Made by a program: the position numbers and the translations under genes
In this document: positions 2,990-7,285 of the stretch, one piece after another
Numbering within the stretch: the first letter of the stretch is position 1
Layout of the letters: every line of letters begins with the position of its first letter
Notes under the pieces: generated by a model
Database searches by the model: none
Seen by the model: only the letters and a program-made list of their open reading frames with translations
Told to the model about the DNA's origin: nothing
NCBI GenBank assembly: GCA_007693385.1
Contig: REDR01000097.1
Coordinates: 1-57,497 of the forward strand
Direction: 5' to 3'
Origin: Anaerolineaceae bacterium
GTDB lineage: Bacteria; Chloroflexota; Anaerolineae; Aggregatilineales; Phototrophicaceae
Length of the DNA: 57,497 nt

Positions 2990-3408
2990 GATGCGTCGGC
3001 GGGTGCGGCCTCGCGGTTGATAGTCTGCTCAATGTGATAGTCGATGATCTCGTCGATCTGCGCCGCGTCGGTATCCGATGGCGCGATCAGTTGGCCGGAG
3101 TCCAGCGTTTCCAGCCCCTTCAGCGCTTGCACGCCGCGTTGAACCCAGCGCTCACGATCAACGCGGTATTCGGCATCGTCTAGCTTGCCGATGGCGTAAT
3201 CCTCATCCAGATCGTGCAGATTAGCCAGCACGCGATCATAATATATCTGCAAGCGTTCGCGTTGCCCTGTGATCTGCGCCGCGATTTGCGAATCGGAGTC
3301 GGGCGCGGTGTCGGCCTGTTGCGGCGTGGAATCCCAGAACGGGTACAGCAAAAAGACCGCGAAAACCAGCACAACCAGCAAAGATAAAATCAAACCTTCA
3401 AGGCTCAT
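2986..3408 (-). CDS. CcmI-like membrane protein, N-terminal part only
   Basis: A 140-aa protein with one N-terminal membrane helix (about residues 5-24) followed by a charged helical region (RERLQIYYDRVLANLHDLDED, interrupted here) that resembles the first, membrane-anchored part of CcmI. It has the typical spacing of a helix that binds CcmH. The TPR part of full-length CcmI is absent. It lies directly after ccmH with a 4-base overlap, the place ccmI occupies in other bacteria. It probably assists the haem ligation complex as a CcmH partner. The family call rests on topology, position and weak similarity. Confidence 0.65.
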   Translation of the reverse strand: MSLEGLILSLLVVLVFAVFLLYPFWDSTPQQADTAPDSDSQIAAQITGQRERLQIYYDRVLANLHDLDEDYAIGKLDDAEYRVDRERWVQRGVQALKGLETLDSGQLIAPSDTDAAQIDEIIDYHIEQTINREAAPADAS

Positions 3409-3947
3409 CGGTGCAAATCTTCCTCGAGGCGGCTACGGTAATTATCATCAAGCGGCGAATCGGACGGCGGCAGATCGTCGGCGTCGTCCGGCTTGCGCCG
3501 CCAGCCGCGAAGCGTCATCAAGCCCAGCCCACCGGCCAGCACGACGGCGACCAGCGGCCCGGCCAGCGCCAGTCGACGCAATCCGCTACTCTGCGGCAAG
3601 CCGACCACCTGCTCGCCCGATTCCGCAACGAAGTAGTCGATGATCTCCTGCTCGGTGCGGCCATCGGCTAACTGACTGCGGATTTCCGCCCGCCACTCAA
3701 AGCAAGTCGGCGCCATGCAGGTGTGTAGCGGCTCGCTATCGCATACCGGACAGAAGATGCGCCGTGCAATCGCGTTGACTTCATCGTATGTGATTTCGGT
3801 CAATAGGCGCGTCTCGCCATCACCATCCGGCGCATCGTCCGGCGGTGCGGTCTGGGCGCTGAGCGTGGTATGGCCGACCAGCGCCAGCGCGACACACAAG
3901 CCAACCATAACCAGCCCGCGCCAGAAGTACGGAGCGTGCGTTTTCAT
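3405..3947 (-). CDS. ccmH: Cytochrome c maturation thiol oxidoreductase CcmH (four-cysteine variant)
   Basis: A 180-aa protein with a signal or anchor helix (about 10-31), a CcmH domain (about 50-120) and a C-terminal membrane helix (about 127-147). CcmH reduces apocytochrome CXXCH cysteines and works with CcmF. The usual LRCXXC motif reads FCPVC here (Cys66, Cys69). It is followed by an insertion with two more cysteines (Cys77, Cys82) before the conserved helix EIRSQLADGRTEQEIIDYFV. I recall this four-cysteine form from Chloroflexota and Deinococcus-like proteins, but could not check it. The start directly follows the ccmE stop (TAAATG), and the end overlaps the next gene by 4 bases. Confidence 0.85.
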   Translation of the reverse strand: MKTHAPYFWRGLVMVGLCVALALVGHTTLSAQTAPPDDAPDGDGETRLLTEITYDEVNAIARRIFCPVCDSEPLHTCMAPTCFEWRAEIRSQLADGRTEQEIIDYFVAESGEQVVGLPQSSGLRRLALAGPLVAVVLAGGLGLMTLRGWRRKPDDADDLPPSDSPLDDNYRSRLEEDLHR

Positions 3948-4526
3948 TTAGTTCGTGCCTGAAAATAGCTGAGCGCCCGGATGATCTTCCGCTAGATTAT
4001 TGCGCGAACCGCCATCTTCAAAGCGGCTGGGACATTTCAGCAGAAGTTCCGTCGCGTAAAACACGCCATCTTCGCCCAACGTGCCGGTCAGGATGGCCTG
4101 CGCTTCGTGGCGTAGCAGATCGGGCATCACCGTATTCGACACGAAAACCGGCACGCTAGCCGACGACGAATCGTTAGCGGCGATGAACAGCGCCTCCGCC
4201 AGATTATCGAATTGCGCCGGAATGTGGGCGATGGTGAAAGCGATGTCAAGATTTTCGCGGTCATAGCGGATGGTATCGCCGATCACCGCGCCACTAATAC
4301 GCACCGTGCGATCCGTGAATGCGGCGGGATCGTCGAGTATCTGTTCAATTGTGGTGAACGATTGCGCGGTGGCCGATGTGCTGGTCAGCACCAGAAAGCC
4401 TATTGAGGCGATAATCAGCAAGCCGCCGAGCATGAACTTCCAGCGCCCGCCGGTTTGTGTGGGGGCATTGGCGGCAACCTGTCCGCCTGCCTTAGCTTGC
4501 GGTTTTTCCCATGTAGCCTGCGTCAT
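3948..4526 (-). CDS. ccmE: Haem chaperone CcmE, cysteine-type
   Basis: A 192-aa haem chaperone with a short cytoplasmic N-terminus, one membrane helix (about 31-50) and a periplasmic OB-fold (about 56-165). Classical CcmE binds haem through His in HXXXY. Here the aligned site at the end of the barrel reads LLLKCPSRF, giving Cys165 and Phe169, so both His and Tyr are replaced. Cysteine-type CcmE is known in archaea and some bacteria as CXXXY; the Phe is a further change. The start chosen is the ATG at 4526, 8 bases after AAGGAG; a TTG lies just upstream. It is the first gene of the operon. The haem-loading partners ccmC and ccmF are not in this window. Confidence 0.88.
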   Translation of the reverse strand: MTQATWEKPQAKAGGQVAANAPTQTGGRWKFMLGGLLIIASIGFLVLTSTSATAQSFTTIEQILDDPAAFTDRTVRISGAVIGDTIRYDRENLDIAFTIAHIPAQFDNLAEALFIAANDSSSASVPVFVSNTVMPDLLRHEAQAILTGTLGEDGVFYATELLLKCPSRFEDGGSRNNLAEDHPGAQLFSGTN

Positions 4527-4706
4527 CAAAAACGCTCCTTAACGGTTAAGCTCAATTGCGTGGGATGAAAACCGACACAAAACGATCCAATGACGGAATC
4601 ACATCCCCTACCCGTATTCTATCTGATTCCGTGAACGCTGTCACGATTAATCGCAGACCGTCCATGTATTTCAGATTGTTGGCAATCATCGCAATGTCAC
4701 TATAAA

Positions 4707-4776: not shown

Positions 4777-5079
4777 TTATCCGGCAGAGGGCGACTGCCC
4801 ACCGTTGCGGAAGCGGTCACGGCCAATCATCGCCATGCCGACGCCACCGATACCGGCCAGCCCCGCCAGCAGAAACAGGATGCTGAGTCCTTGCGGCGTG
4901 CTGGCTGTCTCTTCTTCGTCCTGATGCGTCAGCGCATCAATCGCCTCTTGCAATTCGGCGGCTGAGGTAGACACCGGATCATCAACCGGCGCGTCGTCAT
5001 CGGCCTGCGCGATAACCGGCACCGCGATCAACAAGACGATCAGCAAGGCGAGCCATAAAGAGCGCGTTTTCAGTCCCAT
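4777..5079 (-). CDS. Small secreted or membrane protein of unknown function
   Basis: I do not recognise this 100-aa protein. It has a clear signal peptide or N-terminal helix (about residues 6-24), an acidic middle section, and a second hydrophobic, Gly-rich segment (about 64-84) followed by a basic end (GRDRFRNGG). This looks like a small anchored protein with the middle part outside the cell. The start is the ATG at 5079, chosen because AAGGAG lies 6 bases upstream; an upstream in-frame ATG at 5118 has no ribosome site. It is downstream of tadA on the same strand with a 150-base gap. Confidence 0.6.
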   Translation of the reverse strand: MGLKTRSLWLALLIVLLIAVPVIAQADDDAPVDDPVSTSAAELQEAIDALTHQDEEETASTPQGLSILFLLAGLAGIGGVGMAMIGRDRFRNGGQSPSAG

Positions 5080-5205
5080 GTTTTTCTCCTTGATGTGTGT
5101 GTCGTTGTCAGCTTTCACGGGCGCGGATAAGCGCGACTGACAACAGCGTAATCACCTGTTATTGTACCGCGTTCACCCCGAAACGAGTAGGGAACGCCCG
5201 CCACT

Positions 5206-5230: not shown

Positions 5231-5704
5231 TCAGGATTCATCGTGCGGATCGCGGCGTAAATCACGGAAGAACGCAGAGAGCAGAGCGCGGGCTTCATCG
5301 GCCAGCAAGCCGGGGTCCACGTCCACGCGATGATTGAGGCGATCATGGCGCAGGACATCAACGATACTGCCCGCGCATCCGGCCTTCGGATCAATGGCGG
5401 AATAGACCAATCGCGGCAGACGCGCCAGCACCATCGCCCCCGCGCACATACAACACGGTTCGAGCGTGCAATACAGCGTCACGCCATCCAGCCGCCAGCG
5501 TTGCAGATGCCGCGCCGCCTGACGTAGCGCGATGATTTCGGCGTGGGCGGTGGGGTCGTGGTCGGCTTCGCGGCGATTATGGCCGCGCCCGATGATTTGA
5601 TTCTGGTACACGGCGACAGCGCCGATGGGCACATCACCAGTCGGGAGCGCCCGTTGCGCTTCGGCCAGCGCTTGCCGCATCCAGTGTTCATCACCCCCGT
5701 TCAT
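5231..5704 (-). CDS. tadA: tRNA-specific adenosine deaminase TadA
   Basis: A 157-aa cytidine-deaminase-fold zinc enzyme that converts adenosine 34 of tRNA-Arg(ACG) to inosine. The zinc site is complete: His54-Ala-Glu56, with Glu56 as proton shuttle, and the Pro-Cys84-Cys-Met-Cys87 motif. Length is normal. It lies 12 bases after the clamp-motif protein gene and probably shares its operon with RNase D upstream. The start at 5704 has no strong ribosome site, and translational coupling to the preceding gene is likely. The window shows no second deaminase. Confidence 0.93.
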   Translation of the reverse strand: MNGGDEHWMRQALAEAQRALPTGDVPIGAVAVYQNQIIGRGHNRREADHDPTAHAEIIALRQAARHLQRWRLDGVTLYCTLEPCCMCAGAMVLARLPRLVYSAIDPKAGCAGSIVDVLRHDRLNHRVDVDPGLLADEARALLSAFFRDLRRDPHDES

Positions 5705-5716
5705 AGTGCGGGCGGC

Positions 5717-6106
5717 TCAGAACAGGCTCAATTGATTGGGGGCGTCGTCGTCCGGCGCTTCTTCGTCGTCGCGCTGTTCCGGCGGGATCGGCTGACCGTC
5801 CGCATCATGCGGCACGACATCCAGCTGGATACACGACGGGCATTGACATTCCGCCGGATGCGCGTTGCTGACCGGTTCCGGCGCGGCGTCCGGTTCGATG
5901 ATGTCGGCGGGCGGCACAAAATCGTCGGCGTTGTCGTCCTGCCGCATGGTGGCCTCGATGTAAAGCTGGCGCAATTCGTCCTCGCCGAAGCCCACTTTCT
6001 GCATGACATGGGTCAGCGTCGGGCGCGTCACTTCGTCGCCGGTGCGGGCGACATATTTATACTGTTCGCGCATACATCTGCGCCATTCGTCAGAGAATAC
6101 CGACAT
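5717..6106 (-). CDS. Unknown protein with C-terminal beta-clamp-type motif
   Basis: This 129-aa protein is not from a family I can name. The N-terminal 50 residues look helical and folded (SDEWRRCMREQYKYVARTGD). The middle and end are acidic and probably disordered. Near residues 92-97 there is a compact cysteine cluster (CQCPSC), a possible metal site. The last five residues are QLSLF, which matches the consensus by which many DNA repair and replication proteins bind the bacterial sliding clamp (QL[SD]LF). A terminal position after a flexible tail is the usual setting. It lies 6 bases after rnd and 12 before tadA. A ribosome site (GAGGG) precedes the start. Function is unknown; a clamp-linked role is inference. 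Confidence 0.75.
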   Translation of the reverse strand: MSVFSDEWRRCMREQYKYVARTGDEVTRPTLTHVMQKVGFGEDELRQLYIEATMRQDDNADDFVPPADIIEPDAAPEPVSNAHPAECQCPSCIQLDVVPHDADGQPIPPEQRDDEEAPDDDAPNQLSLF

Positions 6107-6112
6107 ACGCCC

Positions 6113-7285
6113 TCACCCTCTCGTTTGATTTGCATTGTGGCCGTCGTCGCCTTCGTAGGCGGCCAGCACGCTCAAAATCTCGTGTCCGTAGGCGTTGAAC
6201 TTCCACGGGCCGATGCTGTCAATCTGCCGCAGATCATCGAGCGTATGCGGGGCACGCTCCGCGATTTCCCACAGCGCCCGCTTGGGCATGATGACATCGG
6301 ACTCGACGCCGCGCTTGCTGGCGCGTTCCTTGCGCCAAGCCTGCAAACAGGCGTAACGATCCGCCGTGATCGGGTCAGGTGCGCTATGACGGCGCGGGCG
6401 TGGCGGTAGCCTGTTGGCTTGCTGGCCGCGCCGGATCGCCGACATGAGCGCCTTGCTGAACCATTGAAATTGACGGCAACTCAAGTTCTGCTTCAACCCT
6501 TTGCGTTCGGTAGGCGGGCGACGCGCCAGATTGACGAGCAATTTATTGTGCAGGATTCGGTGCGGCGGCTTGTCGTATTTCTGCGCCAGATGCTCGCGGG
6601 CGTCTATCAACTCGCGCAGGATCATCAATTCACGATCCTTGAGCATACGCGGCACGCCGATATTCCAGAAAGCGTGCGGGTCGGGTTGGCGCGGCGTGGC
6701 CGCCGGTGTCTGGCAGACCTCCGCGAAGGCTTCCCGCGCTTCGGCGATGCGGCCTTTTTCCTCTAAAACCAGCCGCAACGCATCGCGCAGGGTTGGTAGA
6801 TAGTGCGTGTCCATCTGTGCATAGCGCAAGCTGGCCTCAGATAGCGGGCGCTTGCCCCAGTTATCGCGCTGATGACGTTTGTTCAGCCTGATACCGATGT
6901 AACGCTTGATGAGTTCGCTGAGGCCGAAAGCGTCGAATCCGCATACCCGCGCCGCCACCATCGTATCGAACAGGTTGCAGAACACGAAGCCGTAATCACG
7001 CTTCAAACAGGTGATGTCGTATTCCGCCCCGTGAAATAGCTTTTCGATCTGCGGGTCGGCCATGATCGCGCCGAGTGGCGTGATGTCTACCGCTAGCGGG
7101 TCGATGATGTAATCCGCCTGACGGGTGGAGACTTGCACCAGACACACGCGCTCTTGATAGGCGTACATGCTGTTCGATTCGGTGTCGAAGGCCACGAGGG
7201 ACTGCGTTTTTAGGTGCTGTATCAGGTCATCCAGCGCTTGCGGCGTGTTGATCTGTTGGGCAGGCGTTAGTTTTGTCTGTGGCAT
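6113..7285 (-). CDS. rnd: Ribonuclease D-like 3'-5' exonuclease with HRDC domain
   Basis: A 390-aa DEDD-family exonuclease. The first motif VAFDTESNSM gives Asp34 and Glu36. Motif II contains FHGAEYDITCL, and motif III has the YAQMDTHYL form (DEDDy, with Tyr). A HRDC domain follows (about 205-290), then a second helical domain typical of RNase D ends the protein. It trims 3' ends of tRNA and other stable RNAs. It heads a likely operon with the clamp-motif protein and tadA, so two tRNA-related enzymes share a transcript. The ATG at 7285 has no strong ribosome site. Confidence 0.9.
   Translation of the reverse strand: MPQTKLTPAQQINTPQALDDLIQHLKTQSLVAFDTESNSMYAYQERVCLVQVSTRQADYIIDPLAVDITPLGAIMADPQIEKLFHGAEYDITCLKRDYGFVFCNLFDTMVAARVCGFDAFGLSELIKRYIGIRLNKRHQRDNWGKRPLSEASLRYAQMDTHYLPTLRDALRLVLEEKGRIAEAREAFAEVCQTPAATPRQPDPHAFWNIGVPRMLKDRELMILRELIDAREHLAQKYDKPPHRILHNKLLVNLARRPPTERKGLKQNLSCRQFQWFSKALMSAIRRGQQANRLPPRPRRHSAPDPITADRYACLQAWRKERASKRGVESDVIMPKRALWEIAERAPHTLDDLRQIDSIGPWKFNAYGHEILSVLAAYEGDDGHNANQTRG

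Follow-up and report, generated by a model that had tools for sequence, protein, structure and literature searches.

A new family of small proteins in one order of Anaerolineae with a conserved C-terminal peptide that very probably binds the sliding clamp

Gene X and its locus

The window, by which we mean the whole analysed stretch of 57,497 nucleotides, carries on its minus strand a short gene, here denoted X, between a gene for an RNase D-like protein (rnd) and one for a tRNA deaminase (tadA) (Table 1). The preliminary description had reported an open reading frame ending in QLSLF, and this was correct, as the frame is intact and its translation closes with NQLSLF. The coupling of X to rnd and tadA was also real, since the three genes follow one another along the minus strand with gaps of 6 nt (rnd to X) and 12 nt (X to tadA). 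The best NCBIfam match of the rnd product was TIGR01388 (rnd), but under its cut-off. The parts of X that had been pointed out earlier were recovered as well: a helical N-terminus, which is real as a prediction, an acidic tail, and the CQCPSC cluster, which reads HPAECQCPSC and follows the pattern H-x3-C-x-C-x2-C.

Table 1. Gene X, the parts of its product and the adjoining genes in the window.
Feature	Position	Strand	Basis and remarks
Gene X (clamp-motif protein)	5717..6106	-	Intact ORF, 129 aa, ATG start, TGA stop
N-terminal three-helix domain of X, residues 1-58	5933..6106	-	AlphaFold2 and alignments (predicted)
Acidic, Pro-rich linker of X, residues 59-124	5735..5932	-	pLDDT mostly 57-85; probably disordered
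HPAECQCPSC cluster of X, residues 83-92	5831..5860	-	Possible metal site
HDADGQP motif of X, residues 100-106	5789..5809	-	Alignment
C-terminal putative clamp-binding pentapeptide QLSLF of X, residues 125-129	5720..5734	-	Conservation in homologues; DnaE and Y-family polymerases from the group share the motif
rnd, RNase D-like, DEDD exonuclease and HRDC	6113..7285	-	Pfam PF01612 and PF00570 over cut-off; synteny
tadA, tRNA adenosine(34) deaminase	5231..5704	-	NCBIfam NF008113 above cut-off; synteny

X is predicted to consist of a three-helix domain and an acidic linker

AlphaFold2 placed three helices in X (residues 3-22, 27-38 and 42-53), with pLDDT values of 96-97 over residues 11-50. The values were 57-85 over residues 61-110 (74-85 within residues 81-110) and averaged 64 over residues 111-120 and 68 over residues 121-129, and the model had no helix or strand of four or more residues after residue 58 and none at all after residue 111. 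By this prediction only, the clamp motif would sit in an exposed, unstructured segment. A model of the isolated N-terminal domain, built on a family f4 protein (its first 68 residues) with 71 sequences, showed the same three helices, with a mean pLDDT of 86 and a pTM of 0.71. Residues F4, W8, C11, L12, L31 and G39 are shared by 90% or more of 58 members. In 66 of the 72 clusters, residues 1-60 carry a net negative charge, which speaks against a nucleic-acid binder. The domain is confidently predicted to comprise three helices, and it is net acidic.

The linker ranges from 7 to 138 aa across homologues, and its net charge is negative in 63 of the 64 motif-bearing cluster representatives (range -48 to 0); it is probably disordered. 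One homologue (L050:5992-6609) has tandem repeats in its linker (DMPIEADDDL...), so that linker length seems to change freely with the QLSLF end kept. The Cys cluster is more restricted. CxCxxC occurs in 51 of 127 homologues, with three changes on the N-domain tree, and the longer HxxxCxCxxC in 19 of the 72 clusters, while HDADGQP comes after the cluster in most of the members that bear it, as judged from the alignment. On the sequences compared, the cluster is limited to part of the family and is not needed for the tail; it is possibly a metal site. Considering the moderate pLDDT of the middle of X (74-85 over residues 81-110), this region may not be a plain tether in the Cys-cluster clade.

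The protein of the window matched no Pfam or NCBIfam family, and no entry of the plasmid or phage collections at E 0.01. Searching 58 members against Pfam and PHROGs gave scattered weak matches only, each in one or two members, the best being E 0.001 to Zn_ribbon_Thio2 in Pfam and E 0.0088 in PHROGs, in one member each; the 71 N-domains gave no convincing Pfam family match. Against PDB sequences, the best E value of the X profile was 0.21, and a PDB profile search gave E 0.00046 and 0.00087 to two designed-looking entries, of which no stretch passes alone. With an E limit of 0.001, Foldseek matched the model of whole X to nothing in the PDB or a viral library, and the domain model to nothing in the PDB. 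The best VIA row, in a re-look confined to Foldseek's own list, was 3bey (Z 8.2, rmsd 4.3 Å over 65 residues, Foldseek E 1.0), which is within the chance range for helical models; we take 3bey, RclX, 1vke and 2cwq to be AhpD/CMD-like helical proteins. A literature search on titles and abstract openings, with subscription journals mostly outside its scope, found no paper on the family. Taken all together, X represents a new protein family, for which Pfam, PHROGs and the PDB offered no convincing match.

X is spread through the order of the window

A search with the X protein found relatives in 41 of the 61 genomes near that of the window, its own included, and missed a divergent copy after the β-CASP gene in G042, G048 and G053. 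Using a 58-member profile, X was found in 130 of the 154 genomes of the order, and in 81 of its 90 genomes at ≥90% completeness and ≤5% contamination, although these genome counts are not independent of each other. Since 5 of the 141 columns of the A2 profile are those of the motif, membership is slightly biased toward motif-bearing proteins. In a class-wide sample, at least 31 of 396 genomes matched, and all 31, the own genome among them, belong to the order of the window; in a phylum sample, searched with an earlier, narrower profile, at least 2 of 400 matched, namely the own genome and one of its family. Up to nine candidates were scored per genome in both samples. Of 37 named contigs bearing X, 20 are labelled Anaerolineae and 10 Chloroflexi, the other seven being labelled Aggregatilineales, Phototrophicales, Anaerolineales, Anaerolineaceae or Ardenticatenia, so that the order is probably Aggregatilineales or one close to it.

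Five genomes of genus g31, which are 96-97% complete, had no X match, so the gene is dispensable within the order. By eye, a surE-like gene follows β-CASP instead in four of these (G043, G049, G054 and G059). Absences of X are to be read as upper bounds, considering that contigs of G020, G032 and G046 end in or just after the β-CASP gene, where X would have its place. At three loci of family f2 (L109, L116 and L117, from G044, G055 and G050, respectively) X was not found, and another small protein (WQYCQ[IV]EVG...) lies after β-CASP. Two of these three proteins have a Pro-rich linker and a common acidic C-terminal tip, DFEPLDF, a layout like that of X with another terminal peptide.

The last five residues are conserved among homologues

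The preliminary description had proposed to check whether the last five residues are conserved, and we did so in the 127 readable homologues, that is, the 130 matched genomes minus two in which the end lies off the contig (G473 and G543) and one in which it is masked (G010). Q-x-x-[LMFIV]-F forms the exact last five residues in 115 of them, and three further members carry one to three residues past the motif, giving 118 of 127 in total, so the proposal withstood the check. Counted by clusters at 70% N-domain identity, the motif is present in 64 of 72. Among the 115 exact endings, QLSLF is the most frequent (49), followed by QMSLF (15), QMNLF (5) and QLSFF, QLALF and QLSMF (4 each). The information content is 3.25 bits at Q(-5), 3.22 bits at F(-1) and 2.2-2.6 bits at the three positions between, compared with 0.6-1.8 bits at the 15 positions preceding the motif. 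The 49 QLSLF ends comprise 35 different 15-mers, which argues that selection acts on the peptide. Even the divergent copies in G042, G048 and G053 keep it, ending in TQLSLF, KQLAFF and KQLSFF, respectively.

As a background, the motif closes none of 427 other ORFs taken from the first 14 kb of the window and from 36 homologous loci, these being the frames of at least 80 aa from a simple longest-ORF caller with antisense frames left in. In the genome of the window, the DNA pattern for a C-terminal Q[hydrophobic]xLF and stop occurred six times, compared with 12 times for the reversed pattern, and the motif closes just two open frames of 30 codons or more, X itself and a hydrophobic frame of 53 codons. 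A motif match in a single genome therefore means little, and it is the depth of orthologues that makes it more than chance; a terminal five-residue motif, though meaningless in one genome, can be validated in this way.

The C-terminal peptide matches the clamp-binding motif

The bacterial clamp-binding motif has the consensus QL[S/D]LF or QxxLF, as given in the excerpt of PMC12309361, and Q125-F129 of X fits both forms. According to the same excerpt, the peptide of B. subtilis PolC, which is identical to that of X and likewise stands at the free C-terminus, binds DnaN with a KD of 3.8 µM, and the DnaE motif QMGLF is about 20-fold weaker (PMC12309361), so that a good motif match is no guarantee of tight binding. 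In the group of the window, the DnaE motif was found at one aligned position in five of six genomes, as QMSMF (the own genome), QITMF, QLSLF, QMSLF and QLGMF; in the sixth, G037, this stretch was not readable in the fetched piece. The search for Y-family proteins gave 10, from 8 of the 16 genomes tried, and all 10 have a Q[LM]xL[FW] close to the C-terminus, such as RQLSLW or QQLSLF. In the replicative and Y-family polymerases of the group, the motif is thus internal. A particular pairing of X with Y-family polymerases was rejected, as IMS_C was found in 8 of the 16 genomes tried and not in that of the window.

DnaN was present in all six genomes tried (PF02768 over cut-off), and that of the window genome matched solved β clamps with a best E of 1.3e-49. 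The stretches DG[YF]R[LM] and V[IV]MPM, which we take to line the peptide cleft of DnaN, were found in all six, reading DGYRL and VIMPM in the own protein.

The ending could be kept for a reason other than DnaN, such as another partner or a proteolytic signal, considering that a five-residue match is cheap in one sequence. We hold this to be very improbable. The variants among the X endings are those of clamp motifs and overlap the motifs of the group's polymerases, and the identical PolC peptide binds DnaN in the excerpted text (PMC12309361). The conserved tail, the motif in the group's polymerases and the binding of QLSLF from PolC together make clamp binding very likely, and we would expect with high confidence that X binds DnaN. 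The clamp-binding reading of the preliminary description is thus strongly supported, with the motif conserved, the consensus matched and the motif carried by DnaE and Y-family polymerases.

Clamp clients with a QLSLF-type tail are a known kind, to which X very probably belongs. PolC is a polymerase, in contrast with X, which has no recognised catalytic domain. Several IS-family transposases end, like X, in Q-L-x-L-F behind a variable context (excerpt of PMC4549789); transposases are mobile-element enzymes, whereas X is kept order-wide beside housekeeping genes and had no phage or plasmid match at E 0.01. Actinobacterial NucS/EndoMS also contacts the clamp via its C-terminal region, with [E/K]-[L/Y]-[T/R]-L-F (excerpt of PMC8228993), but it is a nuclease and its motif is spelled differently from that of X.

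The domain persists in members without the motif

Nine of the 127 readable members lack the motif (G013, G037, G039, G052, G057, G060, G469, G476 and G477). All three readable members of family f4 (G039, G052 and G057) belong to these, and their proteins end just after the helices. On the 127-row N-domain tree, motif loss took six changes by parsimony, of which the starred branches force only two; because the resolution of the tree is poor, with 61 of its 124 inner branches open, the six changes are to be taken as a parsimony figure. The N-domain is still recognisable in all nine members, and a domain that persists without the motif probably has a function of its own that outlives the tail.

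We considered whether a frameshift hides the motif and found none in eight of the nine by reading three frames (G469 offered only 84 nt of flank). In the ninth, G477 (L218), X ends in an unrelated tail and another frame reads QKSLF before the stop, so its motif loss may be a frameshift, either real or from assembly; G477 is still counted as motif-less here. A transfer of the motif to a neighbouring gene was likewise rejected, as none of nine callable C-termini (Rnd, β-CASP, TadA and CorA) carries it, four of the five motif-less loci tried having yielded any.

X as a candidate clamp-tethered adaptor

A small acidic folded domain, a long acidic tether and a terminal clamp peptide constitute the layout of a clamp-tethered adaptor. 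In the mechanism that we propose, the C-terminal QLSLF would dock in the hydrophobic cleft of DnaN, the long acidic, Pro-rich and probably disordered tether would let the three-helix domain reach out from the clamp, and this domain would bind a partner, which X would thereby keep on clamps at the replication fork or on those in its wake. If the N-domain binds a partner, X would act as an adaptor, and because a three-helix domain of about 55 aa, matching no family convincingly, is the only fold predicted, an adaptor seems more plausible than an enzyme. On balance, we favor X as a non-enzymatic adaptor tethered to the DnaN clamp on behalf of a partner, with a good deal less confidence than we have in the binding.

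The main rival is a clamp competitor, in which X would occupy DnaN clefts and so make them less accessible to polymerases or other clients. Its acidic tether and its domain would then serve only to modulate affinity or to mimic the charge of DNA. Competition of this sort is known from eukaryotes, where p21 or PAF15, which are small, non-enzymatic proteins with a short clamp peptide of the PIP-box type, act on PCNA; we know of no domain that they share with X. X would suit such a role by its small size and strong acidity (63 of 64 representatives have a negative linker), by its lack of a recognised enzymatic domain and by its QLSLF, which fits the consensus better than QMSMF of the own DnaE. 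A pure competitor, however, needs no folded domain that is better conserved than its linker, and nine of the 127 members retain the domain without the motif. We therefore regard the competitor as rather unlikely; the adaptor role as against simple clamp competition, which has less support than binding, is given about two thirds of the remainder.

X could also regulate replication initiation like YabA or Hda, bound to the clamp with its N-domain touching DnaA. YabA of low-GC Gram-positives resembles X in size and layout, being small with N-terminal helices and a flexible linker, and it contacts DnaN and shares a Cys/His element with part of the X family (excerpt of PMC4705661). As described in that excerpt, though, YabA binds DnaN by its C-terminal zinc domain and has no classical pentapeptide, in contrast with X (PMC4705661), and the Cys cluster is found in only 51 of the 127 members of the X family. 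Furthermore, the 58 members searched matched 19 Pfam families in all at an E limit of 0.5, none of them YabA, and no AAA+ domain (Hda/DnaA-like) was among the Pfam matches of X and the 58 members, X having only 129 aa. An initiation regulator of this kind thus seems quite improbable.

Returning to the clamp-tethered adaptor, X is a probable new passenger of the replication machinery. The best-known clamp partners of bacteria come mostly from work on E. coli and B. subtilis, and the majority are enzymes. An order-wide and apparently non-enzymatic clamp client would add a partner in a phylum whose replication is little studied, and X would also provide a ready bait, as any partner of its N-domain probably ends up at replicating DNA.

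Neighboring genes do not single out a partner

In many relatives, the genes are arranged as corA, rnd, β-CASP RNase, X, (a membrane gene) and tadA, and cytochrome b/Rieske genes lie divergently upstream of this array, again in many relatives. Gene order, as well as queries, background and C-termini, relied on a simple ORF caller that sometimes took antisense frames at homologous loci. Taking the nearest same-strand gene among the genes tested, X is preceded within 400 nt by β-CASP in 54 of the 130 genomes and by rnd in another 15; in 57 neither gene is found there, and the remaining four have a contig end. Where β-CASP or rnd precedes X (69 of 130), the median gap is 14 nt. Downstream, tadA follows X in the same orientation in 86 of the 130 genomes; in 27 the flank lacks it, and in 17 the flank is shorter than 2 kb. 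In genus g17, tadA overlaps or abuts X. Two groups, one of 17 genomes and one of 16, have other enzymes upstream of X, which by eye belong to α-glucan metabolism; every genome listed for these groups is of genus g17. The arrangement of rnd, β-CASP and tadA around X is thus old but not constant, and because the neighbors vary among genomes, gene order singles out no partner.

The β-CASP protein (for example L044:4580-5989) is homologous to RNase TTHA0252 (E 4.3e-82) and to archaeal FttA (E 6.1e-51), the latter of which we take to be a transcription terminator. X might then tie RNA nucleases to the replisome, its three-helix domain holding RNase D and the FttA-related β-CASP RNase of the operon on clamps, where they would clear RNA or stalled transcription complexes at forks. 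The old gene order, the close upstream position in 69 of 130 genomes and the homology to TTHA0252 and FttA are consistent with such a tether, and RNases do work at B. subtilis forks, the excerpt of PMC11352351 naming no clamp adaptor. The own genome, on the other hand, has no β-CASP match at E 1e-60, neither gene lies within 400 nt upstream in 57 of 130, and genus g17 has α-glucan-like enzymes in that place, and we would be surprised if X held these nucleases. The link between replication or repair and RNA enzymes that the preliminary description had raised accordingly finds no support beyond gene order. β-CASP as an obligate partner was rejected on the lack of a match in the own genome at that cut-off, with the reservation that the cut is strict and a distant copy could escape it.

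Between X and tadA, several genomes encode a probable membrane protein with a Cys-rich stretch (L038:6467-7282 and L056:7625-8419), and its L038 copy had no NCBIfam match. Another probable membrane protein, of 113 aa and without a Pfam match, is encoded between tadA and ccmE in the window (4777-5118). Homologues of CcmH (3408-3947) and CcmE (3951-4529) lie downstream of tadA, and the CcmH-like protein contains an extended Cys region, CPVCDSEPLHTCMAPTC.
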